A stretch of DNA of 23,599 nucleotides from a virus: the IMG/VR virus record IMGVR_UViG_3300007734_000495, positions 1-23,599 of that record, one strand, 5' to 3'. Positions 4,334 through 19,068 of the stretch are shown in pieces; the stretch's first letter is position 1, and every line of letters starts with the position of its first letter. Below the pieces are notes generated by a model, which was given only the letters and a program-made list of their open reading frames with translations, was not told where the DNA came from and ran no database searches. The position numbers and the translations under genes were made by a program.

Positions 4334-5113
4334 TTAAGCCGTCTTTTGTAGATTGTAAAACTGCTTGATTACTTCCATCCATTGAGCTTCGTGTTTTTCA
4401 ATATCGTTCTTACCAAAAGTGAAGACCTGGACGGAATATTCAGGAGAGGGTGTCGACACAATAATTTGGGTTTTATCAATTTTTATACCTAAGCAACTTT
4501 CAGCAGCGATCTTATAAGCAGCTAACTGAAGCTGGGTTTTTTTGAGCTTGAAGACACCCGAAATCAAGGCTTTGCGGGTTTTGTCATCGAGACCAGAGTC
4601 AGCCCGTGGAAACCTATAACTATAAGGACCCGCTGAAGTCTTGAAGTCTCCCAAGATTATTTCATTGTTGCTGTCGACGTAAATAATGTCACAGCAACCC
4701 GCGTATCCGTACCCCGTAACCTCGTCGTAATAATGGATTCGACCGACGCCATCCTCGCCGGTATATCGAGACCACTGCGGTTGGTTGTAAGGTTTTTCCG
4801 ACCACAGCACTTTGCCGTCGCTCAGAAGCTCTTCGAGCTTTGCAGGCATCCCGTCCCAATAAGGCAGATACTCACGCGGCGGTTCGACCCGAAGTCCACG
4901 GATCCAGTTTTCAACCGCGTTGTGGATAAATGTTCCTCGTGCGGCAGCATTTTCAAGCGCACCTGGATTCATGATGTTCCAGTGCGCAAGTTTTTTGCGA
5001 GTATCTTCCGATTGGGTGGCGGATAAAACGCTTGTTACCGAAGGTAGCGGTTTTGGAACACCAGCACAATTGTAGTGACGTAAACCGTTGAGAGTTAGTC
5101 GTGTTTGAGACAC
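4334..5113 (-). CDS. PD-(D/E)XK (RecB/Cas4-type) nuclease
   Basis: 259 aa. The RecB-nuclease motif set is visible in order: an upstream His in RGTFIHNAVENW (H64), a Glu region near residue 106, GCCDIIY with D142, the DxK core GDFKTS (D156, K158), and the QxxxY helix QLQLAAYK (Q196, Y200). This is typical of phage exonucleases that act in recombination or process replication ends. The four Fe-S cysteines of Cas4 proteins are not evident. The start is taken as GTG at 5113 because no ATG precedes the first nuclease motif; the next in-frame Met is at residue 48. That GTG lies inside a 16-bp perfect palindrome. The primase-helicase follows directly, so the product probably works at the same replication or recombination intermediates. 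Confidence 0.88.
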   Translation of the reverse strand: MSQTRLTLNGLRHYNCAGVPKPLPSVTSVLSATQSEDTRKKLAHWNIMNPGALENAAARGTFIHNAVENWIRGLRVEPPREYLPYWDGMPAKLEELLSDGKVLWSEKPYNQPQWSRYTGEDGVGRIHYYDEVTGYGYAGCCDIIYVDSNNEIILGDFKTSAGPYSYRFPRADSGLDDKTRKALISGVFKLKKTQLQLAAYKIAAESCLGIKIDKTQIIVSTPSPEYSVQVFTFGKNDIEKHEAQWMEVIKQFYNLQKTA

Positions 5114-5152: not shown

Positions 5153-5515
5153 TTAAAAAGTCAGAGATGGGTGTCTCGGCGGAGAATAATCATCGTCGTC
5201 ATCATCTTCTTCATTGTCTTCTTCAATCTCTTCCTCTTCATCTGAGTCTACAAAGAATTCAGATTTCTGATATTCGAACTCTTTGCTGCGAGAGTTCAGG
5301 TCTTCGGAGAGGCACATGCCTGCGCAAAAACTTTCAGTAACAATTTCCGCGCAGTCAACGGCAGATCGAGCTTCGCCTTCAGGGGATACGCACTCTTGCA
5401 GGAGCTGATTGGATACCAGTAGAGCACAGATCTTGTCGAGTTTGGCATTGGAAACCATCAGTTGATCGAGGATTGACTTCTGAAACGCCTCGAATTTATG
5501 TGATCTGGATGACAT
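5153..5515 (-). CDS. Small protein with a long acidic C-terminal tail
   Basis: Unrecognised, 120 aa. Residues about 5-45 look helical with a heptad-like pattern (FEAFQKSILDQLMVSNAKLD). The C terminus is extremely acidic (EEEEIEEDNEEDDDDDDY, about 93-111) and ends in a short tail with terminal Phe (PSLTF). Acidic tails ending in an aromatic residue occur on phage and bacterial ssDNA-binding proteins, where they recruit partners. No OB fold is seen here, so an adaptor or DNA-mimic role is only a guess. Its ATG overlaps the stop of the upstream methyltransferase-like gene by one base (TAATG), giving translational coupling. Confidence 0.75.
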   Translation of the reverse strand: MSSRSHKFEAFQKSILDQLMVSNAKLDKICALLVSNQLLQECVSPEGEARSAVDCAEIVTESFCAGMCLSEDLNSRSKEFEYQKSEFFVDSDEEEEIEEDNEEDDDDDDYSPPRHPSLTF

Positions 5516-6054: not shown

Positions 6055-6129
6055 TACCCGGGAGATCAGGGTTCGCTGAGCTTAGCCAGTCCCGACGGGC
6101 GCGTCCAGTAAATAGTGATTAGAGTAAAC

Positions 6130-6387
6130 ATGCACGCTCTAAAGATTATGTTAAATCTTGAGTGGTCTACGCCGGAGCAGAGTTTTATGCACCAGCGTGT
6201 AATGATGGATGCCAGAAAGCTCGATAAAGATGACCTGTTAGAGATTTTTGAAGCGATTCACCAGCAATATCAGCTCAAGGGTCATTTGTTTTCTCAGCTA
6301 GTTAAATGGTGCGTAAAGACTGGCGTAGAACTTCCGCCCTTTTCTGAGCTGTTAACACCCAAACAAGCTGATCACCCTTTGGAATAG
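6130..6387 (+). CDS. nblA: NblA-like phycobilisome degradation protein
   Basis: NblA is a small helical adaptor that binds phycobiliproteins and brings them to Clp protease, bleaching the antenna. Residues from TPEQSF through LFSQLVK align without gaps, over about 45 residues, to the NblA two-helix core as I remember it from Synechococcus and filamentous cyanobacteria. Matched positions include EQ.F, a Q then R/K, (V/A)R(K/D)(L/I), acidic residues then DL.(E/D).F, a central Q, and (L/I)F.. (L/M)(V/I)(K/R). A 23-25-residue tail (VELPPFSELL and beyond) is longer than usual for NblA. Starts are possible at GTG 6115, ATG 6130 (chosen, weak AGAG upstream) and ATG 6148; the last gives the most NblA-like N terminus. 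It is the only confident + strand gene amid minus-strand replication genes. Cyanophage nblA is known from Microcystis and Planktothrix phages. Confidence 0.75.
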   Translation: MHALKIMLNLEWSTPEQSFMHQRVMMDARKLDKDDLLEIFEAIHQQYQLKGHLFSQLVKWCVKTGVELPPFSELLTPKQADHPLE

Positions 6388-6760: not shown

Positions 6761-7582
6761 TCAGAACTCAAGACCAAGTGCTTTAGCTTGTTCTTCAGTG
6801 AGCTCCACTGCTTTCTTAGTTTTTGGCGAAGGCGGAGGGTTGTCCTCAGAATCATCAGCCACATCAGCAGCCTTAAGACTCTTGCTAGGAACATTAGCTG
6901 AAGGTAAAGACCGCTCAGCCGGCGTCCCACGCGTCGCAGCAAACTGGGCCTTGATCTCCGTGTGATCTGACCCAAGAGGTAGCTCAACCAAATCCGATCC
7001 AGGAATGTGAGACTTGAGTGCCGCTGTGATGAGCGTCGCGCCTTTGTCGGAAAGCCAAGCATTCACATCCTCGATTAAGTTGGTTTCTTCGTCGTTCGCT
7101 GCAGGGCGATCGGCGAATTCAAGTGCGTTGAAGTTGATCTTTGCTCCGTCTGCCCCAGTTATGGGGTCGCGCTCGTTAAAGCTGCGGGTCACAAACTTAG
7201 ACGCTGTGATCACGGAAGCACAGTTAATCCTGTTGTTGAACAGGGTTTGGAAGTAACTGATGAAATTCTTTTGGGATGATTTCCCGGAGATCATCGAAGT
7301 CGTCACACACCGAGGAGGAAGCAGCCTGTGGTTAGGGCTGACACCTACATAAGCGATGCGTAAAAACTCTTCTTGATTACGGAGTCCCAGGTTACCAAAG
7401 TAGGGGGTGAAACCTAAAAGGATAAACTCAATGGGTATACCGTTATCGTTTTTGTCTACAATTGCGCTGTCAGGATCCACATCGGATTTCCAACGGCGAG
7501 CTTGAAGATCGATACGTAGCGTGTGCGGCGGAACATTACAGAGAATTTCGTCCGCAGAAAATTGGCCGGCGATAAAAACCAT
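6761..7582 (-). CDS. Unknown protein downstream of ssb
   Basis: 273 aa, not recognised. The first two thirds look like a folded domain (segments IPIEFILLGFTPYFGNLGL, SYFQTLFNNRI). Residues about 215-260 are low complexity and acidic (DVADDSEDNPPPSP), and the protein ends in a helix with terminal Phe (EQAKALGLEF). It lies 9 bases after the SSB stop, in the same operon. The tail composition and position suggest a DNA-binding or recombination-mediator partner of SSB, which is inference only. A 103-aa ORF in another frame here is a shadow. Confidence 0.75.
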   Translation of the reverse strand: MVFIAGQFSADEILCNVPPHTLRIDLQARRWKSDVDPDSAIVDKNDNGIPIEFILLGFTPYFGNLGLRNQEEFLRIAYVGVSPNHRLLPPRCVTTSMISGKSSQKNFISYFQTLFNNRINCASVITASKFVTRSFNERDPITGADGAKINFNALEFADRPAANDEETNLIEDVNAWLSDKGATLITAALKSHIPGSDLVELPLGSDHTEIKAQFAATRGTPAERSLPSANVPSKSLKAADVADDSEDNPPPSPKTKKAVELTEEQAKALGLEF

Positions 7583-7591
7583 GGTCGTAAA

Positions 7592-8236
7592 TCAGAGCGA
7601 GAAATCAATCGAACCGATAGCAGCGGCAGCTACTTTACCCTTCTCAGGGTCTGCAGCTTTTTTAGGTGTAGATTTAGTCGATTTGGGTAAATACAGAATT
7701 TTGTCAACGTTGTAGTTGAGATAAAGCTTTTCGTCTTTTTCGCTGGTAGAAACTTTGCCAACAGCAATCGTCGGGGTTCCCGGAGCCAGTTCTGCGAGTT
7801 GCTTCGAAAGCTCTGCCCATCCAGTCAGTTTGAACCAATTGGTTTCGGAGTTTTCGCTTTGCCAAGCAAGGGAACGGTTGGTGACTGTAGTGTCGCCCAG
7901 CTCCACCTCGTCTGCCTTAGGACCTAAGCCCCCCGTGGCCATGAAGAGGTTGATCGCCAGCATGTCGTCAAAGTTTTCCTGAGTCACAACCAGCATTGGT
8001 TGCATCTGCAGTACACCATCGGGCGTAGGCCGAGTAGGGCCAATCGCCAGGACAGTATTTTCGACCTTTAAATTCTTGAGAAGTTTGCCAACGTAGTGAT
8101 TTTTTTGTTGGATTAGTTGGACTTTGGTTGCGACTCGTTTGTCGTTGGATGGCAGCGCTTCAGCTAATACGTTGAGGGCGCCGTCATCTTCTTGAGCCTC
8201 AGCTGTGATTCGAAGCCCCAGTAGGAAGACATTCAT
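7592..8236 (-). CDS. ssb: Single-stranded DNA-binding protein with two OB-like domains
   Basis: 214 aa from the ATG at 8236; the same frame is open to 8287 but that would add 17 residues before the first beta strand. The C-terminal OB fold is clear: INLFMATGGLGPK (95-107) corresponds to the usual SSB N terminus, TNWFKLTGWAEL (132-143) to the central W-F strand, and TIAVGKVSTSEKDEKLYL (156-173) to the next strands. Residues 1-85 repeat the pattern in weaker form (MNVFLLGLRI, then VGKLLKNLKVENTVLAIG, then LQMQPMLVV), so this may be a tandem-OB SSB like those of Thermus/Deinococcus. The tail is short and ends SIDFSL, resembling the DDIPF-type tip. It coats ssDNA at the fork beside the phage polymerase. 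It overlaps the upstream gene by 38 bases. Confidence 0.82.
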   Translation of the reverse strand: MNVFLLGLRITAEAQEDDGALNVLAEALPSNDKRVATKVQLIQQKNHYVGKLLKNLKVENTVLAIGPTRPTPDGVLQMQPMLVVTQENFDDMLAINLFMATGGLGPKADEVELGDTTVTNRSLAWQSENSETNWFKLTGWAELSKQLAELAPGTPTIAVGKVSTSEKDEKLYLNYNVDKILYLPKSTKSTPKKAADPEKGKVAAAAIGSIDFSL

Positions 8237-8765
8237 GCTTGAGTTTGCGGTAAACAGTCGAACGGTGGACGTTAAGGGCCTTGGCAATCTGGTCGACCCG
8301 GACGCCTTGGCTTCGGTACGCTAGGAGCAGTTTCGTGTCCCCGCAAGTAAGTTTGGAATTTTGGTTCTCGTGATATTCAAAGTGATACGGATTTATACAG
8401 TTTTTACTTTTGCACTTTAATTTTGCTGTAAGTGTATCTTTTGGTATATTTAAGTATTTGAGGATAACATCTTTAATATAAAATCGTTTTCGAAATGCGT
8501 AGATACAGGGACATCCGTTTGTAAATTTATCGGTCCAGACGTAGCAACTATCGTGCTCGAAGGTGTTGTACGCTAAATCTTTAAATAGTTTTGAAAGAGC
8601 GGTTCTCTCAACAACCTCATAAATTAAGTCAAATTTATCCGCGTCAAATGCTCTGAGAATATCAGACGCTTGCGCCTGTGCGTGATTTGTATCCAAAGCA
8701 CACACATCAATATTAAATTGTGTGCTGTTTTTAGAGAGAATTAATGTATATCTGTTTGAATTCAA
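8199..8765 (-). CDS. Degenerate HNH endonuclease fused to a helix-turn-helix
   Basis: 188 aa. Residues 74-136 follow the phage HNH homing-nuclease pattern: CYVW (74-77), then CKSKNCINPYHFEYHENQN (118-136) matching CDNPxCVNPxH...N. C118, C123, N125, P126, H128 and the later Asn are kept, but the first catalytic His, two residues before C118, is Leu. Residues 145-177 form a helix-turn-helix (VDQIAKALNVHRSTVYRKLK), the usual DNA-recognition tail of these enzymes. Loss of the catalytic His suggests a DNA-binding protein domesticated from a selfish nuclease. The start is a TTG overlapping the DUF4214 gene stop by four bases. The 3' end overlaps ssb, which fits translational coupling and perhaps local autoregulation. 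Confidence 0.7.
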   Translation of the reverse strand: MNSNRYTLILSKNSTQFNIDVCALDTNHAQAQASDILRAFDADKFDLIYEVVERTALSKLFKDLAYNTFEHDSCYVWTDKFTNGCPCIYAFRKRFYIKDVILKYLNIPKDTLTAKLKCKSKNCINPYHFEYHENQNSKLTCGDTKLLLAYRSQGVRVDQIAKALNVHRSTVYRKLKHECLPTGASNHS

Positions 8766-10224: not shown

Positions 10225-12117
10225 TTATTTAGCGGCCCAGGAGTCGCCGACGCTTGCATCTGCTGATGCTGGAACCGATGTTAATACATTTTCTGCGGCT
10301 TGGATCATGATCGATTCCAGTATTTTTTTATACTCTTCCGCAAGGTCTTCACGTACTTCAAGGACCAGTTCATCGTGTACACACGCCACTAAATATGCGT
10401 TTTCATTAAGGTGCTCACTAAGTTGCGCGATAGCTATTTTTAAAATATCAGCACCGGAACCTTGGATTAGCGTGTTTGCGCTGCACATCATGGTCGCATC
10501 GTCGTAGCTCAGTAGGCGGCGGCGCCCACATGCTGTTCGAGTGAACGTCCATCCATCAGCCACTAAAGCTGCTCTCTCCTGATGCCACACCCGCAAGCGC
10601 GGATACGCTGCGTGGAAACCGGTGTGCGCAACCTTAGCCTCTGATAAAGAGATTATCTTTCCGCTTTGCGCAGCGTATGTCTTGTACTTTCTGTAGCCCA
10701 TGCCGTATAACAGTGCGAAGTTAAGTGTCTTACCATCCTGACGCTCATCTTTTGTTACTGCATTAATGTCTTTCTTATAAATCAAACTTGCTGTCAAGGT
10801 GTGTAAATCAATGTCTTCGATAAAAGCTTTTTTCATCTGAGGGATATTGATCAACTCAGCGCCTAACCGGAGTTCGATCTGAGCCCAGTCGCAGATAACA
10901 AGCTTGAATCCTGGTGCCGCTACAAAGGTTTCTCGGAAGTCTCTTGATCGAGGAACTTGTTGTATGTTTACACCAAAGATAGTTTTGGTTTTTGTTTTAG
11001 ATGTTTTTGGGGCGCCACTACTGGTAAATCTCCCAGAGTTTGCGCCGACTTGATTGTACCCTGAGTGCAGCCTATGTGATACAGGATTTACATTATCAAG
11101 TAATTTATTTACGTGTTCTAACTGCGTTTCAATTTTTGCTCGCTCGCGATAAACCATCAGCGTGGGATCTTCGCTATCGAATTCAGCAAGCGCTACTTGA
11201 TTTAAAGTAGTTTTCTCAGTTTTTTGATCAACCGGTAGCTCGATGCCGCAGTTATTAAATGCTGCGATCAACTGTGCTGGGCTACTAGGGTTGAACTCTT
11301 TAATTCGTTTTTTACCGATAGCTATTGAACCGTCTTCTCTCCTAGGAAGCTTCCTATCATCAGGCAAACGGGAATCCAGCTGCGTTACAAACTCTGCAGT
11401 CTTGATATTTAATTCGTTTTCTATTTTAATTTTTAATTTCTTTAATTTAGCAATATCTACACTGAATCCTCTCCTGCACATTTGGGCCACGGGGCGTATG
11501 CACTTACTTTCTATTGAGTAAAGCCCTAAAAGATTTTCTTCCTTAAGTTCTTCAAATTGTTGCTTAGCAATAAGCGGCAAAATTTTTACATCTTTAGCCG
11601 CATACTCCAGCTGACTTTCAGTAAGGGTTTCCGCTCCCCAATTACTTACTTGCTCTTCTTTCGAAATTTCCAGTTCGAGCCGACGCTCAGCTACCGCTTT
11701 CAGGCCGCAAGAAACGTCAGCAAAATAAGGTTTCTTTGTCTGCGGCGCGATTCGCTTCTCCTTAAAACCAGCGCGGAGAATTCGTTCGGCAATGTAGGTG
11801 CAAAAAACATTGCCTCTAAAATCACAACCAACAGAGTATAAAAACTGTAAGTCGAAGTTTGCATTATGAATTACTAAAGTCTTACGTGATTCTATATATC
11901 TACATACAGGCTCTATGTTAACTTTAAACGCATCAAAAACATAAACAGGTTTAGACAAATCGTCGACAGATGCTGAACAGATCTGAATCAGACGAAGTTT
12001 TGCTATCCAACTGTCGAGCCCAGTGGTTTCCGTATCTAGAACAATTTTTTCGAACCCAGCCAAATCCTTCAGAGCCTGCTGGCATTTGATGTCGGTGTCG
12101 ACGTAGACGAAATCCAT
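10225..12117 (-). CDS. polA: Family A DNA polymerase with 3'-5' exonuclease
   Basis: 630 aa from the ATG at 12117. An in-frame GTG at 12153 is rejected because it lies inside a terminator hairpin. Exonuclease motifs: Exo I LDTETTG (D28, E30), Exo II HNANFD (N85, D89), Exo III YAAKD (Y172, D176). Polymerase motifs: A ICDWAQIELRL (D410), B RQDGKTLNFALLYG (R459, K463, F467, Y471), C CVHDELVLEV (H581, D582, E583). There is no 5'-3' exonuclease domain, as is normal for phage PolA. The position equivalent to E. coli Phe762 is Phe467, whereas T7 has Tyr; this residue has been linked to replication style in viral PolA. It is the replicative polymerase of the phage. Confidence 0.95.
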   Translation of the reverse strand: MDFVYVDTDIKCQQALKDLAGFEKIVLDTETTGLDSWIAKLRLIQICSASVDDLSKPVYVFDAFKVNIEPVCRYIESRKTLVIHNANFDLQFLYSVGCDFRGNVFCTYIAERILRAGFKEKRIAPQTKKPYFADVSCGLKAVAERRLELEISKEEQVSNWGAETLTESQLEYAAKDVKILPLIAKQQFEELKEENLLGLYSIESKCIRPVAQMCRRGFSVDIAKLKKLKIKIENELNIKTAEFVTQLDSRLPDDRKLPRREDGSIAIGKKRIKEFNPSSPAQLIAAFNNCGIELPVDQKTEKTTLNQVALAEFDSEDPTLMVYRERAKIETQLEHVNKLLDNVNPVSHRLHSGYNQVGANSGRFTSSGAPKTSKTKTKTIFGVNIQQVPRSRDFRETFVAAPGFKLVICDWAQIELRLGAELINIPQMKKAFIEDIDLHTLTASLIYKKDINAVTKDERQDGKTLNFALLYGMGYRKYKTYAAQSGKIISLSEAKVAHTGFHAAYPRLRVWHQERAALVADGWTFTRTACGRRRLLSYDDATMMCSANTLIQGSGADILKIAIAQLSEHLNENAYLVACVHDELVLEVREDLAEEYKKILESIMIQAAENVLTSVPASADASVGDSWAAK

Positions 12118-12123
12118 AAGAAG

Positions 12124-12153
12124 AAAAAAAGTGCGCCACCTCAGGCAGCGCAC
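12124..12153 (-). terminator. Rho-independent terminator just before polA
   Basis: The minus strand forms a 10-bp stem (12144-12153 with 12131-12140, including two G-T wobbles) with a 3-base loop, followed directly by TTTTTTT (12130-12124). It follows the stop at 12164 of the upstream small gene. The polA ATG comes only 6 bases after the T run, leaving no room for a promoter in between. Confidence 0.85.
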
Positions 12154-12163
12154 GTGGGTAGGA

Positions 12164-12358
12164 TCAGATTCCAGCTATTGAGTTTTTTACTGATGTAAAA
12201 ATCTCAAGTTGGCTGCTGTGATTCTCGATGTTGGAATCAAGAGCTGCTTTGATGCAACGAATAATTGCTTCAGCATCTATAACTTCTGCTGCGACACAGA
12301 AGCATTCCGCTAAAGCCTCGATGAGTTCGTTCTCATACAGAAGTTGTGATGAATCCAT
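12164..12358 (-). CDS. Unknown small acidic helical protein
   Basis: 64 aa, no recognised family. It is predicted to be almost all helix (ENELIEALAECFCVAAEVID, then AEAIIRCIKAALDSN). Its ATG overlaps the TGA of the preceding wHTH-like gene by one base, so it is coupled to it and probably works with that protein. A terminator follows immediately. Confidence 0.7.
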   Translation of the reverse strand: MDSSQLLYENELIEALAECFCVAAEVIDAEAIIRCIKAALDSNIENHSSQLEIFTSVKNSIAGI

Positions 12359-13137
12359 CAGCTTGCTGCCTGCAGCTCAAGATTTTTCTCAATATAGCGA
12401 TCCATGTCAGCCCACATTTCGACGAGCTGGCGACCGCGATCAGAGGTCTTGATCTTGTAGTAGATCCGACGGGTGCTCTCAATCTGAGGGGAGCTGTTCT
12501 TGGAGTAAGGCGCGCCCATAGACAGCATCTTTTTCTGCTCCACGAGACCGTGCTTCTTGCAGTACACCAGCCCCTCACGCAATGCGATGTACATAGGCGA
12601 CACGTGGAACGTGTACTTACGCTCAATGCCGCTGCTCAGATCGATGGGATTCGGCTTGCCGTCTACCATATCGAAACCACGCAGGAATTTAGAGGTTGCA
12701 AAACCAAGCTTCCTGTTAACGATTTCACAGGCAAACTGAGTCGCAGTTTCGCGAAGGGTTACCCACTCATCCGAGCTAGCTGCTTTTAGCAGCATGGCAG
12801 TCCCCAGCGCACAGTATGAGTTAGTGCGGTTGAGCTGCTCAATGATCTCTTCGAGTGCTGGCTCCTTTGCACTAGAGACCACCTTGAGCTTTGGAGTAGT
12901 GAACGAAGACGGCTGCTTTTGTTGCAGCGAGATTTTCCACGCCAGAGAGGCGAGATCTTGGTTCTGCTTCGACACAGCCAATTCAAAAAGCTTGGAAGCG
13001 TTTAGGTTCCTTGTGTCGATCAGGGTGCTGATCTCAATAACTGGAGCGGAGTGTCCTTTGTGACCGGCGACCTCAAGGAGGGCAACGGCTTCGTGGGGCT
13101 CAATGGGAGTTCCTGCAAGACAGAATTGGAAGTTCAT
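12358..13137 (-). CDS. Unknown protein with a C-terminal winged-helix-like region
   Basis: 259 aa from the ATG at 13137; a GTG at 13146 would add three residues. The C-terminal part resembles a winged helix: IALREGLVYCKKHGLVE (187-203) as helix plus recognition region, then IYYKIKTSDRGRQLVEMW (228-245) as wing and final helix. The middle contains a helical segment (LEEIIEQLNRTNSYCALGTA). No family name can be given. The 80-91 bases upstream are AT-rich with a small hairpin (13192-13205) followed by a pyrimidine-rich stretch, perhaps a weak terminator for the block to its right. It may be a replication or transcription regulator, being the first gene before polA. Confidence 0.72.
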   Translation of the reverse strand: MNFQFCLAGTPIEPHEAVALLEVAGHKGHSAPVIEISTLIDTRNLNASKLFELAVSKQNQDLASLAWKISLQQKQPSSFTTPKLKVVSSAKEPALEEIIEQLNRTNSYCALGTAMLLKAASSDEWVTLRETATQFACEIVNRKLGFATSKFLRGFDMVDGKPNPIDLSSGIERKYTFHVSPMYIALREGLVYCKKHGLVEQKKMLSMGAPYSKNSSPQIESTRRIYYKIKTSDRGRQLVEMWADMDRYIEKNLELQAAS

Positions 13138-13228
13138 GTCAAACACTGTGAATGACTGGATCAGCGTAGAAAGGAAAGACAGGAAAGCAAGCCCGGTCTA
13201 CCGAGGTTTAATATTCTCTTTAGATTTT

Positions 13229-13678
13229 TTAACTTGTGTGTCCTAGGCCACTAAACACGAGTGCCACGTTTTCCGACCAGTCGTGGATGTCGCCTGCGAG
13301 CTTTGAGCTTATTTCTTCGATGTCTTCTGCCAGCAGGGACACTGCCGCCTTTAAGACTGGTATACGATCAGTCCCAAAAAAATCATATAAATACGGTTTT
13401 AAGCTAATAGCTATGTCGTAAGACACCCCTGTAAAAAAACCGTCATCAGTCTCATTCTTAATTACGGAGAACAGTAAGCAGTTATATAAAAATTCGATGC
13501 TGCAGTTGTTGTAGTTAATTTTATTTTTTCTATCCGGTGAATCTTCATAGATGGAGTTAAATATACAATCGCTTACCCACTGCTGTAATTCGTCTGCAGA
13601 AGTTTCACGAACACAATACGCTTCCTGTATCTCTAATAATTTTTCTAAAGTATCTAGCAGTGGTGTCGGGCCGCTCAT
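13229..13678 (-). CDS. Unknown acidic helical protein, end of the AAA+/VWA operon
   Basis: 149 aa, unrecognised, acidic and mainly helical, with three Cys in the first half and a segment VLKAAVSLLAEDIEEISSKL (107-126). Its ATG overlaps the stop of the 75-aa gene by four bases (ATGA). It is the last gene in the block containing the VWA and MoxR-like genes and may be an accessory factor or substrate adaptor; nothing in the sequence proves this. Confidence 0.7.
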   Translation of the reverse strand: MSGPTPLLDTLEKLLEIQEAYCVRETSADELQQWVSDCIFNSIYEDSPDRKNKINYNNCSIEFLYNCLLFSVIKNETDDGFFTGVSYDIAISLKPYLYDFFGTDRIPVLKAAVSLLAEDIEEISSKLAGDIHDWSENVALVFSGLGHTS

Positions 13679-13902
13679 TCTATTTTTTCCGCGCCGTCAA
13701 CCTTAGACCAGATCGGCTCTCCCTTGATTATTCCGTGACAAATATACAATTCATTTGTTTCTGTGTTGTACCAAAAATCACCAATAGCTATCTTCCGCTT
13801 TAAACCGTTAACTATTTCAACAGCTTCTTGGTATTTTTCTCTATTACTATATTCTTCAATAATTTTATTTAGATCATCAGCGGGCTCTTGTACGTTTTTC
13901 AT
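13675..13902 (-). CDS. Unknown 75-aa protein in the AAA+/VWA operon
   Basis: The N-terminal half is a charged helix (DLNKIIEEYSNREKYQEAVE). The C-terminal half, IGDFWYNTETNELYICHG followed by PIWSKVD, resembles the short beta motif (GDLWYNT...LY..DG..W) often found in phage proteins. A good Shine-Dalgarno (GAGGT, 7 bases before the ATG) is present, unlike most genes here. It starts 4 bases after the VWA gene stop. Confidence 0.72.
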   Translation of the reverse strand: MKNVQEPADDLNKIIEEYSNREKYQEAVEIVNGLKRKIAIGDFWYNTETNELYICHGIIKGEPIWSKVDGAEKIE

Positions 13903-13906
13903 GTTC

Positions 13907-15457
13907 TTACCTCAAGCATCTCTGAATCGCATCTACGGTTACGTCAGGGTTATATAGATTGACCGAGTAGAGTTCGTCACTAAACGTCCGGCAAACATCG
14001 GGGATGTCGGTGTTGATGCAGACTGTGCTCCACTGCACGCCATTTGTTTGCTTGAATGAATTTAAACGCCTAATGAAGTTATCATGAACATCGCTGTGCC
14101 CATCTGTGATCATCAATACATCAGCTCGCTCTGAAATTTTAGCCTTGTCTAAGGCGTGGGCTAACACTGCGTTAAAACTCGTGCCGCCTCCGAGAGTCCA
14201 CGTGCAAACAAAATCAATCAGTTGTGCGTTGTCCTTACGATCTTTCTGGAGTTTTACAGACCCGTTTATTTGAGTGTCGAAGAGGTGAATCTGAATCTCG
14301 CGGTTTTGTTTGAGGGCTTCTTCAGCGATCACAAAAGCAATCGCCTTGCTCCACACCTCAGTCTCCCCGTGCATCGAACCGGATACGTCCACATACATCA
14401 CGATGGGTCCTTTGCCGATGTCGCGCCGCGTGGACGTGTAATCCTTTGTCAGCAGAGTTTTCTGTGAGTACTTGAGTGCAAATAGTGCGCTTCCTTCTGG
14501 GCTTGCTGCCAACGCAACTTCAGCAGGGAATGCTTTAGTTACGTCATCGCCGAACCGGGCGCCAGTGATTGATTCGTACGTGTCGCGGGTTTTCCGAGCT
14601 TTCTTACGCTCGTGCCAAATCTTACGGAGCGCTCCAAGTTTCTGTGTGAGTTTCTTTAACTCTTTGTTCTTACGAAGTTTCTCCGCGAGTTTCTTCTTAG
14701 CTTCGAGATCGGCAGCGTGTTTGCCTGCTCCAGAACTATCCCCGTGGAGATTACTGATAGCTTCGTTTACCTCATCGTTTTCCTCAAGAGCTTTATCGAC
14801 AATTTTGTGTGACTGACTTTGAATTTTGTTCTTCGCTTCCTGAATAGCTTCGTTGATTGCTTGCCCTAGTCTCTTACCTTCTGCTCGAATCTTTTCGGCT
14901 TGTTGTTTGTCTCCGTTTTCTACTGCTTTTTGATACTGCTCACGTAACTCCTGCAGCTTTTGATCTGCCGAAGTTAAAAGCTGTACGTCAAACTGTCCGC
15001 TTTCGATTGCCTGCTCAATAACTTTCGACAGTTCGTTGATGATGTTTACCGCATTATTACCTGCGTTGAATTGATCGCCGACTGATCTGCGAATGAGCTC
15101 AGGCCACGCAGCAGCTTGGCTCATGTCGCTCATGATTGAATACCAAATGCCGTTCTCGGGTTTGTAACCCTCAGGCAGTGCAGCCGAATCTCCGTCGCAA
15201 ACTTTACGAAAGTAATCTTCGTATGCGTCTTCAGTCACCAACCACTGCACATTGTCAGCACTATAAAGACGCTCGAAGATCTCCTTGCCAAAACGCGAAA
15301 GTTGTTTGATGTTGTAGTGGTCGATTAAATACGTGACAATCGGACGCGCGTCGCGAATAAAATCCTGCCATAGAAAATCTGCAAGAGCTGAGCAAGCGAG
15401 TGTCAGGGGCTCGTTGTCTACAATCCGGATAATCTCAGAATGCGTTGTCGTGTTCAT
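13907..15457 (-). CDS. VWA (MIDAS) protein, ViaA/CoxE-like
   Basis: 516 aa. The C-terminal third is a von Willebrand A domain with a complete metal-ion site: DVSGS (D357, S359, S361), GGTSFN (T426) and ITDG (D452), surrounded by typical strands (PIVMYVD, IQIHLFDT, ADVLMIT). The N-terminal 150 residues are helical, and residues about 160-295 form long charged coiled coil (QKLQELREQYQKAVENGDKQ and the lysine-rich ELKKLTQKL region). This order, helical N terminus, coil, C-terminal VWA, matches ViaA and related partners of MoxR ATPases. Such VWA proteins bind the AAA+ ring and a target through the MIDAS. It follows the 77-aa and MoxR-like genes with overlapping ends. A CobT-like identity is possible but less likely given the partner. 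Confidence 0.85.
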   Translation of the reverse strand: MNTTTHSEIIRIVDNEPLTLACSALADFLWQDFIRDARPIVTYLIDHYNIKQLSRFGKEIFERLYSADNVQWLVTEDAYEDYFRKVCDGDSAALPEGYKPENGIWYSIMSDMSQAAAWPELIRRSVGDQFNAGNNAVNIINELSKVIEQAIESGQFDVQLLTSADQKLQELREQYQKAVENGDKQQAEKIRAEGKRLGQAINEAIQEAKNKIQSQSHKIVDKALEENDEVNEAISNLHGDSSGAGKHAADLEAKKKLAEKLRKNKELKKLTQKLGALRKIWHERKKARKTRDTYESITGARFGDDVTKAFPAEVALAASPEGSALFALKYSQKTLLTKDYTSTRRDIGKGPIVMYVDVSGSMHGETEVWSKAIAFVIAEEALKQNREIQIHLFDTQINGSVKLQKDRKDNAQLIDFVCTWTLGGGTSFNAVLAHALDKAKISERADVLMITDGHSDVHDNFIRRLNSFKQTNGVQWSTVCINTDIPDVCRTFSDELYSVNLYNPDVTVDAIQRCLR

Positions 15458-15668
15458 GTTGATTTATAGGGTAGAAACGAAGTAATTGAATCTTTTTCTC
15501 CTCCACAAGATGCGCGGAGGAGACCGTGGCAACAATACCTGACTTCAGGATCACATGATAACAATCGTTACCGTTGTGATCCTGTTCGTACTTAACTGCT
15601 ACACCGTCGGCGTCGAAGTCTGTTTCAGTGAGTTCGAAACGGTCAGCTACTAATGTCGCTGATTGCAC
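15435..15668 (-). CDS. Unknown 77-aa protein between the ATPase and VWA genes
   Basis: It starts at GTG 15668, overlapping the ATPase by 26 bases, and ends 23 bases inside the VWA gene. The sequence suggests a small beta barrel (VAVKYEQDHNGNDCYHVILK, then GIVATVSSAHLV). No family is recognised. Double overlap with both partners suggests a dedicated subunit or expression coupler of the machine. The long overlaps argue that the frame is real, but the GTG start is uncertain. Confidence 0.62.
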   Translation of the reverse strand: MQSATLVADRFELTETDFDADGVAVKYEQDHNGNDCYHVILKSGIVATVSSAHLVEEKKIQLLRFYPINQHEHDNAF

Positions 15669-16830
15669 GGGCCAAGGTGTCGCAGTGGTTTTGTAGATTC
15701 TGCTGGAGTTTCACACCTGATGCCCGTGTTGTCACGGACATTCGGAATCGAGTGCCATCCAGAATCTCCCCTACTTTATCGCGAACAGTCTGCATGTCTT
15801 TGTGATACTTGCGGAGATTAACCACAAAATCATTTAAATCGCCCAGACCTTTGGCTTTGTATTTGTGGGAGTGAGCCGTGTACTCCGCCATAATTCCAGC
15901 AGCAGCTCGCTTGGCATCGTTAAATACCCGATCCGCTGTGGGAATTTCCTGCTCAAGAACCTCTTTAATAGTGTCTTGATCTTCCCGAGTCTGGTACACG
16001 ATGTGAATCAGACTGTTATGGAGATGCTCTGCATACAGTTCGTCATCACCTTGCACCAAAGCCCAGGCTTTGAGGAATTTTAGAATCTGTACTCGACGAC
16101 GATCACTGATCGTGATGTTGCGACTGGCCAACATCTCCCAGACATTGCTAAAGCGATCTAGAAACTCTTCCGATACGGTTATGTCGTTCGCTGCTTGCTG
16201 CAGTTGCTGCAGTTCTTTCAGCGTTAGGTGGTCACCTACTTCAGGGCGCACAACCAAACCTAAAGCCCACTCATCGAGCTTACGTTTGGATACTGGTTTC
16301 TTTAGAACATCAACCGTGGGTCGGAACAGGAATCGATCCGCAAATGCTTGCAACGATTCTTCGTCGGGCCAACTGTTTGTCGCAGCAACAATGGATTGAA
16401 TAGGCGTTTCGACAACAGTTTTACCGTTGTTAAAGGTGCGTTCGTTCAGCAGCGTTAGCAGAGAGTTCAGGATTGCCGAACTACCTCTAAAGAGCTCATC
16501 CAGGAAACCAATGTGAGCGTCTGGCAGGTAACCAGTAATGTCTCTCGTGTATTCATCTTTCAGCAGTTTGGTAACTGCTACGGGACCGAACACCTCAGAG
16601 GGATCCGTTGTCGGTGTCAGCAAATAACCGAAATAATTCGCACCGTTAATACCTCTGCAGATATTACGGACTAAATCAGATTTGCCGGTGCCAGGAACCC
16701 CAAGCAAAAAAGCGTTTTGCTTGCTTAGAAGTGTCGCTAACAAACCGTCGATAACAAACTCACGCTCCAACGTGGAGGCGTTAAGTGCGCCACGAAAGTT
16801 TTGTAGCTTGGTGAACAAGGTGTCGTTCAT
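15643..16830 (-). CDS. MoxR/RavA-like AAA+ ATPase
   Basis: 395 aa. Walker A GVPGTGKSDL (44-53), the MoxR-type segment LLTPTTDPSEVFGPVAV (70-86) and GYLPDAHIGFLDELFRGSS (100-118, with Walker B D111/E112), then ILNSLLTLLNERTFNNG (120-136), sensor 1 AATNSWP (149-155), the DR of an arginine region (165-166) and sensor 2 ISDRRRVQILKFLKAWAL (241-258). The spacing closely follows E. coli RavA, including the STPEEVFGP-like motif. A helical C-terminal region (270-395) is extra. MoxR proteins act as chaperone-like remodelling machines with VWA partners, and a VWA gene follows two positions downstream. CobS is the main alternative, but the RavA-specific segments favour RavA-like. Confidence 0.88.
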   Translation of the reverse strand: MNDTLFTKLQNFRGALNASTLEREFVIDGLLATLLSKQNAFLLGVPGTGKSDLVRNICRGINGANYFGYLLTPTTDPSEVFGPVAVTKLLKDEYTRDITGYLPDAHIGFLDELFRGSSAILNSLLTLLNERTFNNGKTVVETPIQSIVAATNSWPDEESLQAFADRFLFRPTVDVLKKPVSKRKLDEWALGLVVRPEVGDHLTLKELQQLQQAANDITVSEEFLDRFSNVWEMLASRNITISDRRRVQILKFLKAWALVQGDDELYAEHLHNSLIHIVYQTREDQDTIKEVLEQEIPTADRVFNDAKRAAAGIMAEYTAHSHKYKAKGLGDLNDFVVNLRKYHKDMQTVRDKVGEILDGTRFRMSVTTRASGVKLQQNLQNHCDTLARAISDISS

Positions 16831-16857
16831 GGTTTTTAGAGAGGAGTGTGAAAAGAT

Positions 16858-17085
16858 TTATTGAAGCGTCTCACTGAGCAGCGGCACTGCTCGTGGACGA
16901 GGAAACGGAATGTACACCGCACTGATCCAACATTCTGTCGACAGAAGGTTGTTTACCACCGCAAGGCGTTCGCAAGCGAATTCGAATGTTGTAAACGTCA
17001 CCGCCTCCAGAACATCGTTGGTATAAGTCTCGATGTCTTTTAGAAAACCGTGTGCGGATTCGATTGTGTACGAAAGACGTTTCAT
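16858..17085 (-). CDS. Unknown 75-aa protein coupled to the DUF3150-like gene
   Basis: Helical N-terminal half (AHGFLKDIETYTNDVLEAVT) and a Pro-rich C terminus (IPFPRPRAVP). Not recognised. Its ATG overlaps the preceding stop by one base (TAATG), and a strong Shine-Dalgarno AGGAGG lies 10 bases before it, within the end of the preceding gene. The ATPase gene starts 27 bases further on. A 74-aa ORF in another frame here is a shadow. Confidence 0.7.
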   Translation of the reverse strand: MKRLSYTIESAHGFLKDIETYTNDVLEAVTFTTFEFACERLAVVNNLLSTECWISAVYIPFPRPRAVPLLSETLQ

Positions 17086-18284
17086 TAAAAGTCAACCTCC
17101 TCGGTCTTGGTTTCGGGTTCTGTTAAATCAGAGAGCAGTTGATCCAGATTTTCTCCTGCAGCTCCAATCAATTCTTTACGTTGTTCGATCAGTTTGTTCA
17201 GATGTTTCGACCGCTGTGCATACACATCGATCTCCACGTTTGCGTCCTTGATCAGAAGATTTAAAACATTAGAGTTTTCTGCGTTCTTGATTCGATCGCA
17301 GAGCGATTTATAAGTTGATGAAAGTGCAAGAGATTGCTTAAGTGTTTCCAAACCTTTAGAGCTGTCACGTGACTCACAGATCTGAGATAATTCGGCACGA
17401 ATTTCATCTTGAACAGCATAGAAATCCTCTGTTCCTTTCTGTCGAACAGCACGGTCCGTGGCTTGAATGTCGTTCCCTGCTTGAAGAAGTCGATCCGCGA
17501 GCACAGAAAGTTCTTCGAAGCCAGACACACTATCGCTAATGAGTTTCAGCTTTTGCGCTGTGATCTGCCAACTGCCGCGTTTCTTATCGCCGCCAGTTTG
17601 TTGGCGTCCGATCTTCGTTATTGAGCGAACGTCAAGGTCATCAAGCAGCTCGGCGCCAAGCAATAGTGCTCTGTCTGCCGCATTTTTACGGGCTGCTTCA
17701 AGGACTTGCTGCGTATTGATTTGATTCTCATAAGCGACGAGTGATTGAAAGTCGCCCTCAATCGGTTTGCTTACACGCTCCATGGAAACAGGCAAAGGAC
17801 CCAAGACCGATACGCGAATCGGCGCTTTATACTCTTCCTTTGTGGGGAAGAACTTCATGTAGGCGTCGAAAGCCAGTTTGAATTCGTCTGAGTCTTCAAA
17901 CAACGGTTTCAAGATACCTTCAGCAGTTTGCTGCCAAGACTCATATTCTTGCTCCCACAGGTCTTTAAGTCTGTCGTTCGCATCTTGAGCGGCTTTACGA
18001 ATATCTTTTATGAGTTCATTAGCCAAATAAAAGTAGGAAGAAGTGACAAAGTGAGCGTCACCACTATGAATGCAGTAGCTGTCATAAAGATCACGCTGCA
18101 TGACGCGAAGTGAATCAAGCTCTGCTTTAAGCGCATTTGAAAGATTGGGGCGAAGGCTGACGGTATTATTACGTTGAAGAGTTTCAACTACCGTTTTCGG
18201 AAGTTTGAGGTCATCAAACTTGATCTGAACCGATTGCCGAACGTCTGCCGAAATAGAGCAGGTCAGCAAGTAATGGGTGGTCAT
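17085..18284 (-). CDS. DUF3150-like helical protein, first gene of the AAA+/VWA operon
   Basis: 399 aa, mostly helix. The N terminus has two short strands (HYLLTCSISADVRQ) followed by SLRPNLSNALKAELDSLRVM (47-66) and a long helix ending LWEQEYESWQQTAEG. This layout (strand, then an RxxL helix, then a Y...W segment) is what I remember of DUF3150 proteins, which in phages and proteobacteria sit beside MoxR and VWA genes. A Lys/Gly-rich break (GRQQTGGDKKRGSW, about 235-248) and a coiled-coil C terminus (LNKLIEQRKELIGAAGENL) follow; the tail is acidic (EPETKTEEVDF). The family call is moderate; the operon context supports it. It may be a scaffold or substrate recognised by the ATPase/VWA pair. 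Confidence 0.68.
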   Translation of the reverse strand: MTTHYLLTCSISADVRQSVQIKFDDLKLPKTVVETLQRNNTVSLRPNLSNALKAELDSLRVMQRDLYDSYCIHSGDAHFVTSSYFYLANELIKDIRKAAQDANDRLKDLWEQEYESWQQTAEGILKPLFEDSDEFKLAFDAYMKFFPTKEEYKAPIRVSVLGPLPVSMERVSKPIEGDFQSLVAYENQINTQQVLEAARKNAADRALLLGAELLDDLDVRSITKIGRQQTGGDKKRGSWQITAQKLKLISDSVSGFEELSVLADRLLQAGNDIQATDRAVRQKGTEDFYAVQDEIRAELSQICESRDSSKGLETLKQSLALSSTYKSLCDRIKNAENSNVLNLLIKDANVEIDVYAQRSKHLNKLIEQRKELIGAAGENLDQLLSDLTEPETKTEEVDF

Positions 18285-18555: not shown

Positions 18556-18978
18556 CTATTTGATTCGCGTGAACGCAAGAACGATTTTATCGGTAAGCTC
18601 ATCGCAAGCTCCTGAAGCAACAAGCTGCTCTGCCTCATGTTTGAGGCACATCTTCGCCAACTTTAAGTCGCCTTCAAGTTTGGCTACCTTTGCAGCAAGT
18701 TTTTCAAGCTTCGTATGCTGCGTGGGCTTGCGGTGAATACGCACAACGATGTTGGTGTTGAAAGCAGGAAATCTGAACCTGCTTTCTTCTCCTGCAAATA
18801 AGCGCAGATCGATACCTTCCGACTCTGCAATAGTTACGTCTCTCAGGAGATTGTCTTTGGCGGCGTTGTACGGAACACCAAAGGAATCGTTTAGTTGCTT
18901 CTGTGCGCCGTCGAACTCATCAAAAGCTTCGGCGGCAACGGCACCTAATGAAACAAGCTCAGAGGTTTTAATGGTCAT
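18556..18978 (-). CDS. Unknown protein with a C-terminal coiled coil
   Basis: 140 aa from the ATG at 18978; the frame is open to 19044, but the candidate promoter at 19040-19068 and the leader argue for the shorter form. The N-terminal part is acidic (AEAFDEFDGAQKQLNDSF); the C-terminal part is coiled coil (KLEKLAAKVAKLEGDLKLAK, about 90-109). No family is recognised. The leader before the ATG (TACATTCACATCA) resembles the leader of the repeated cassettes further right. Confidence 0.7.
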   Translation of the reverse strand: MTIKTSELVSLGAVAAEAFDEFDGAQKQLNDSFGVPYNAAKDNLLRDVTIAESEGIDLRLFAGEESRFRFPAFNTNIVVRIHRKPTQHTKLEKLAAKVAKLEGDLKLAKMCLKHEAEQLVASGACDELTDKIVLAFTRIK

Positions 18979-19039: not shown

Positions 19040-19068
19040 AGCATAGCAGTTTGGGAGTTTTATGTAAA
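19040..19068 (-). promoter_or_regulatory. Sigma-70-like promoter for the 18978 gene
   Basis: The minus strand reads TTTACA (19068-19063), a 17-base spacer and TATGCT (19045-19040). This matches the -35 at five of six positions and the -10 at four of six. It gives a leader of about 55 bases to the ATG at 18978 and lies downstream of a terminator for the preceding gene. Confidence 0.45.

Follow-up and report, generated by a model that had tools for sequence, protein, structure and literature searches.

Organization and conservation of the MoxR-VWA locus

The window analyzed here, the entire 23,599-nucleotide stretch of a 23.6-kb virus record, carries on its minus strand a cluster of seven open reading frames (ORFs) that the original prediction had described as a RavA/ViaA-like machine with a DUF3150-like partner and small subunits. 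All seven ORFs are present and, in the order of decreasing coordinates, encode a 399-aa protein denoted H399 (17085..18284), a 75-aa protein (16858..17085), a 395-aa MoxR AAA+ ATPase (15643..16830), a 77-aa protein (15435..15668), a 516-aa VWA protein (13907..15457), and proteins of 75 aa (13675..13902) and 149 aa (13229..13678). The predicted tight packing holds, but the spacing is mixed, with overlaps of 1, 26, 23 and 4 bases along with short gaps at two places, 27 bases before the MoxR gene and 4 bases after the VWA gene.

The RavA-like ATPase matches the bpMoxR family of Pfam (PF20030; 6e-54, 182.7 bits against a cut-off of 27); RavA is its only match in NCBIfam (7e-40), and the RavA structure in the PDB is matched over residues 8-324 (2e-57). 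The Walker A motif (G44-S51), Walker B (D111, E112), sensor 1 (N152), D165 and R166, and R244 and R245 are invariant in all 73 distinct sequences. The score against the RavA equivalog, 137.5 bits, does not reach the cut-off of 681. The alignment ends at about RavA residue 331, the phage protein being about 100 residues shorter, which leaves too little space for a LARA domain of the size found in RavA. In the scan of cellular genomes, relatives of the phage MoxR showed only 30-42% identity. The VWA protein is ViaA-like (1.6e-18); it matches ViaA of Escherichia coli in both hhalign (99.1%) and BLASTP (9e-15) comparisons, scores 67 bits against the ViaA equivalog cut-off of 500, and also matches the VWA_CoxE profile. 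Its MIDAS is complete, with D357, S359, S361, T426 and D452 invariant in 71 of the 71 distinct sequences. The assignment of a MoxR/RavA-like ATPase with intact motifs and a VWA protein with a full MIDAS is thereby borne out, with RavA and ViaA as the nearest named families, and, judged from sequence, the pair is very probably a remodeller of the RavA/ViaA type.

Scans of viral contigs yielded 39 loci for MoxR and 110 for H399, the latter reduced to the best 80; locus counts include only those loci whose contig reaches far enough to see the gene in question. Among the best 80 of 110, MoxR and VWA lie downstream of H399 in 75 of 75 loci, a gene denoted up162 lies upstream of H399 in 74 of 74, and dn262 (12358..13146, minus strand; no convincing match in family profiles) together with a family-A DNA polymerase (10225..12153, minus strand; phrog_17, 2.5e-100) lies downstream of the module in 71 of 75. 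The product of up162 (18556..18978, minus strand) is a 140-aa helical or coiled-coil protein; the listed ORF starts at 19044, the conserved start being at 18978. It matched none of the families searched, and its AlphaFold model (pLDDT 70.5, pTM 0.32) is too poor for a fold search.

The small ORFs are distributed differently. The 75-aa ORF next to H399, conserved in the alignment where present, was detected in 52 of 75 loci, and the 77-aa ORF between MoxR and VWA is lineage-specific (5 of 75 loci; both counts among the best 80 of 110). The ORFs at 13675..13902 (mostly 26-47% identity) and 13229..13678 (22-74%) show a partial distribution; they are not fixed subunits, because they evolve fast and were not detected in divergent relatives. 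The suggestion that the small ORFs encode new subunits is therefore not sustained by their patchy presence or fast evolution, and a role as stoichiometric subunits was rejected for lack of conservation. Nor do the overlaps imply fixed stoichiometry, as had been proposed: the 1-base overlap between H399 and the 75-aa ORF is kept in nearly all loci, but other spacings and insertions vary widely. In other lineages (L006, L015, L017, L022, L028, L034 and L057), an unrelated-looking gene for a protein of about 230 aa, of no known family, precedes MoxR; it sits between MoxR and either the 75-aa ORF or H399, and its product has an apparently conserved C-terminal (I/L)LxxY-like end.

Given these presence counts, the small ORFs are accessory and the core consists of up162, H399, MoxR and VWA. 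The notion of a conserved unit thus stands as far as linkage is concerned, whereas the unit comprises four genes rather than seven, and one of these, up162, lies outside the originally predicted span. Unlinking of the genes in related phages, which the original prediction had named as grounds for its own rejection, was looked for, and the order H399-MoxR-VWA was found to be kept throughout. In the comparison with the nearest relative, pN is 0.03-0.06 against pS of 0.67-0.78 for H399, MoxR and VWA; with synonymous sites near saturation, these ratios mean only 'well below 1'. The low pN relative to pS, together with linkage in all 75 loci, puts the observation beyond chance. The core genes are identifiable, intact, linked and under purifying selection. 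Pairwise distances of H399, MoxR and VWA co-vary (rho 0.88-0.91, compared with 0.41-0.48 against the polymerase; all above permutations), and the median identity of MoxR (0.67) is close to that of the polymerase (0.64), marking the module as a slow-evolving core. A DNA-level search with the module found no match in named phages. Separately, the MoxR and VWA matches in the INPHARED entries AFYI01000003, AGRM01000003, OR845595 and OR850905 look like bacterial chromosomal ravA-viaA; these are apparently whole-genome or contaminated records, and the genes seem not to be phage genes.

The virus appears to be a cyanophage. The primase is most similar to that of Synechococcus phage S-EIV1 (29% identity across half of the protein), and the best matches of the polymerase are from Pseudanabaena phages (27%). 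NblA matches were found in 14 of 21 long relatives, in 4 of these above the Pfam cut-off, and among the control genomes in Synechococcus elongatus only. In the window, a 90-aa ORF on the plus strand (6115-6387) has no match of its own to Pfam NblA and is a homologue of an NblA-family protein encoded at the corresponding position of a related record (34% identity, 4e-15); this phycobilisome-degradation-like gene, located on the strand opposite to the module, points to a cyanobacterial host. No psbA, psbD, chlorophyll-binding or high-light-inducible families were detected in the 21 long relatives, so the cyanophage assignment, which agrees with the original prediction, rests on the NblA-like genes and the similarity to S-EIV1 and Pseudanabaena phages.

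H399 and its possible relationship to DUF3150

No convincing match to H399 was found in Pfam, PHROGs, NCBIfam or PADLOC. The AlphaFold model (pLDDT 82.6, pTM 0.66) is mainly helical: long helices accompany a short N-terminus of mixed beta and helical structure, and the tail is disordered. Foldseek comparison of this model with the PDB gave nothing below 1e-3, and comparison with viral protein models gave eight matches with E-values of 1e-3 or better and probability 1.00. Among these is A0A6J7WV52 (E-value 2e-6, probability 1.00, TM 0.44/0.56), the DUF3150 label of which is taken from annotation. The genomic place of H399, beside a MoxR-type ATPase and a VWA protein and near exonuclease and SSB genes, parallels that of DUF3150.

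At the sequence level, DUF3150 (PF11348) had no match in the 23 H399 family members scanned and none in the L002 record, compared with 6.8e-93 for pSN254. The H399 profile aligned collinearly with those of ten plasmid DUF3150 proteins over 240 columns, but 31 of 200 column shuffles scored as high; hhalign comparisons of H399 with single sequences of DUF3150, CL131 gp148, Moorella DUF6744 and Dylan gp94 were not significant. Because the profile score does not exceed the shuffles, we call H399 DUF3150-like by predicted fold and not a member of DUF3150. The original proposal of a DUF3150-like partner accordingly survives at the level of the modelled fold and is not significant at that of sequence, and the families searched gave no indication that the 399-aa product belongs to an unrelated known family, the other finding that had been named as counting against the prediction.

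H399 seems confined to a single group of viruses. A tblastn search found none in named phages; a genome scan covering 84,980 species of bacteria and archaea gave 407 pattern matches and no relative at the sensitivity of the scan; and a deeper search recovered essentially the same virus group again. Conversely, IncC DUF3150 was not found in viral contigs. One of the structural matches to H399 is as long as gp94 (275 aa) of Mycobacterium phage Dylan (gp94-gp95, L127:17932-20524). The gene for gp94 adjoins one for an AAA-family ATPase (PF00004, not MoxR), which hints that the H399 fold partners other AAA+ proteins as well.

C-terminal tips in phages and plasmids

The C-terminus of H399 is -DF in 117 of 117 complete sequences; some of these loci were fetched twice, and the set contains 67 distinct 20-residue tails and 70 distinct full-length proteins, including that of the window. 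The linker that precedes -DF is divergent, acidic and disordered, the last 20 residues containing on average 6.3 acidic and 0.8 basic residues. Similar tips are found on two products of the surrounding region, both encoded on the minus strand. The conserved protein p273 (6761..7582), present in 19 of 21 long relatives, ends in G(I/L)(D/E)F in 17 of those 19, and ssb231 (7592..8233), which is weakly SSB-like (PF00436, E-value 0.037, below the cut-off), ends in S(I/L)(D/N)FSL in 19 of 19. Also in this region, the product of 8199-8765, the gene for which overlaps the SSB-like gene, combines a helix-turn-helix with a part that weakly resembles an HNH endonuclease and shows about 50% identity in relatives. 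The window further encodes an exonuclease (4334-5113; phrog_298) and p120 (5153-5515), a protein with a strongly acidic tail and a terminal Phe in 9 of 10 relatives, similar to an SSB-type tail. The SSB of S-EIV1 likewise has an acidic tail ending with Phe.

A comparable arrangement exists in plasmids. The gene order in the IncC plasmid pSN254 is AAA, X, ssb, bet, exo, DUF3150, VWA; the other plasmids examined encode an AAA ATPase and DUF3150, with VWA annotated beside these in all but one, and most also carry exo along with ssb or recT/bet. The plasmid DUF3150 proteins end in an aromatic residue in 13 of 14 cases, compared with 11 of 120 other plasmid proteins (Fisher p 8e-11); against the same background, aromatic C-termini are also enriched in Exo (7 of 10; p 3e-5) and protein X (5 of 5; p 2e-5) and not enriched in Bet/RecT (2 of 8). 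In addition, the tips of Exo and DUF3150 are more alike within a plasmid than in shuffled pairings (p 0.0005-0.003). All these p values are optimistic because several of the plasmids are related to each other. In pVPH1, the pattern is seen in four proteins, with X ending in DSYF, Bet in GNYF, Exo in SAYF and DUF3150 in DCYF. The IncC SSB carries DDDIPF away from its C-terminus, unlike the DUF3150 and Exo tips; this different, internal motif led us to reject plain SSB-tip mimicry as the whole story in plasmids. The plasmid tips are aromatic and lack the Asp of the phage tips.

Possible function and relation to known systems

MoxR-like AAA+ proteins are remodellers that assemble into hexameric rings, to which VWA partners bind; the sixth ligand of the MIDAS metal comes from the target, which has been suggested as the final substrate (PMC13036017). 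In Rea1, this ligand is Glu or Asp, with a conserved Glu as the ligand residue (PMC6624252). By analogy, the phage MoxR would form an ATP-driven hexamer, the VWA protein would dock on its ring, and the MIDAS metal would hold the client. H399 would present a hydrophobic-Asp-Phe tip on a flexible tail, of the same kind as those of the neighbouring DNA-region proteins. Such a tip might serve as a docking tag for the machine, which would spend ATP on removing tagged proteins from single-stranded DNA or on passing them along at that site, with H399 acting as an adaptor or decoy. The tip could be received by VWA, by MoxR or by some other protein of the replisome. In the phage tips, the Asp would fit a MIDAS contact; because plasmid tips lack it, a single MIDAS-Asp contact cannot explain both phage and plasmid tips, and the more general version would be a terminal aromatic residue read by a groove or pore loop. 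The DNA roles of ssb231 and p273 are deduced from position, given that ssb231 is weakly SSB-like and p273 has no assigned function. The cyanophage S-EIV1, whose set of replication genes is similar, was in the collection searched with H399, MoxR and VWA and yielded no match, so the machine is not generally required.

That the machine acts in DNA replication or recombination appears fairly probable. The complete explanation, a cyanophage RavA/ViaA-type MoxR-VWA remodeller with a four-gene core that serves these processes and reads C-terminal tips, we hold to be a serious possibility that falls somewhat short of probable, and the idea that the tips are what the machine reads is the more tentative part; the tips could instead attach to a different protein of the replisome, in the manner of SSB tails. 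Such a reading has its own form: the tips of H399, p273, ssb231 and p120 would be SSB/gp2.5-like tails that attach to a replisome hub, which could be the polymerase, the primase or the helicase, H399 would thereby recruit MoxR-VWA to the fork, and the tips would be recruitment signals rather than tags. The acidic tail with a terminal Phe, as also in p120 and the S-EIV1 SSB, resembles SSB-type tails, whereas the tips persist in plasmids that have no polymerase genes of their own nearby and match within a plasmid, and the IncC SSB motif is internal and unlike those of DUF3150 and Exo; we consider this reading rather doubtful.

It is unlikely that the machine is instead a virion-assembly chaperone for folding or assembling a protein of the tail or capsid, with an incidental replication neighbourhood. 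Among viral MoxR-VWA pairs, experimental data exist only for ATV p618/p892, which functions in tail development (PMC4124505), and the same role has been proposed for jumbo phages (PMC7824862), but the phage module is strictly linked to polymerase and replication genes, shows no linkage to structural genes in the window or the fetched flanks, and has haloviral counterparts that are also located in a replication/accessory module (PMC7911831). Host takeover or anti-defence, whereby the machine would remodel a host protein or disarm a defence complex, for example, a MoxR-vWA ternary system of cyanobacteria, is suggested by the match to the bpMoxR model, which was built on conflict systems, and by the common occurrence of such systems in cyanobacteria (PMC7159879). 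We regard it as quite improbable: PADLOC recognized none of MoxR, H399 and up162, its matches to VWA were weak coiled-coil ones only, there are no effector domains, and the core evolves slowly, unlike typical anti-defence genes. Metal insertion, or cofactor chaperoning for a phage or host enzyme as in NorQD or CoxDE, would accord with the VWA_CoxE match and the several systems in which MoxR-VWA pairs insert metals (PMC13036017) but is highly improbable, with no metalloenzyme gene conserved in the module and RavA-ViaA as the nearest named pair.

The reading we prefer, a remodeller working in DNA replication or recombination, could extend to a wider class. The phage H399-MoxR-VWA and plasmid AAA-DUF3150-VWA modules would both read the short C-terminal tags that the element puts on its own exonuclease, its ssDNA-binding/annealing proteins and others that handle DNA, and would recycle these proteins on DNA; the third subunit, tagged itself, would be an adaptor or decoy, and the tags would diverge between elements and match within them. 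We offer this extension as speculation, with considerable doubt. The tip pattern is the interesting part, as it suggests a concrete idea of what the machine pulls on and names candidate clients: p273, ssb231, plasmid Exo and protein X. Were this borne out, an AAA+ machine that is so far an orphan would be tied to the replication and recombination of DNA, both in cyanophages and in the multidrug-resistance plasmids of the IncC group.

Viral MoxR-VWA pairs have been described in ATV (PMC4124505), 0305phi8-36 (PMC2147016), jumbo phages (PMC7824862) and haloviruses (PMC7911831), and CL131 also carries one; of the roles, that in the development of the ATV tail is known, and the others are proposals. 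Our literature search found no client for the MoxR-VWA of any bacterial virus, no paper that names DUF3150, and no assigned role for the IncC DUF3150 and VWA genes beside ssb/bet/exo; in full text, no paper was found that joins MoxR/vWA with phage, recombination, single-stranded DNA and exonuclease. Within the reach of the searches, the following are new: a core of four genes, two of them coding for unknown subunits, that was seen in this virus group only; the strict linkage of this core to replication genes; the predicted fold-level link to DUF3150; and C-terminal tips common to phage and plasmids.

Among the known systems, the MoxR-vWA ternary conflict systems share with the phage module the bpMoxR match and the combination of MoxR, vWA and a third component, but no beta-propeller (bpX), VMAP, iSTAND, FtsH or effectors, as defined in PMC7159879, were detected in the core. 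ATV p618-p892 is likewise a virus-encoded MoxR-VWA pair, with a MoxR that is a detectable distant relative (27.5% identity), but includes a virion protein with tail clients (PMC4124505) and has no H399 or up162 equivalent identified here. Bacillus phage 0305phi8-36 encodes adjacent MoxR and VWA (PMC2147016), as do Aphanizomenon phage vB_AphaS-CL131 and Moorella phage MTATph1, which match the same PHROGs, 19600 and 24053, as the window; in the latter two, the third, upstream gene encodes LPD29 (CL131) or DUF6744 (MTATph1), with no detectable similarity to H399. RavA-ViaA of E. coli resembles the phage pair in family, gene adjacency and the ViaA-like C-terminal VWA region, whereas the phage module has two further core genes, lacks room for a LARA domain and, at 137 and 67 bits, stays well short of the curated equivalog cut-offs of 681 and 500. 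The modules of IncC and related MOBH plasmids differ in the ATPase (CobS/CbbQ-like, with a CbbQ_C domain and a match to phrog_249), the VWA protein (CobT-like, with a HEAAH motif near the N-terminus), the lack of significant sequence similarity between H399 and DUF3150, and tips that are aromatic without Asp, but share with the phage module a MoxR-type ATPase and a VWA protein, a helical third component with a disordered tail and a C-terminal tip, and a location beside ssb, bet/recT and exo.
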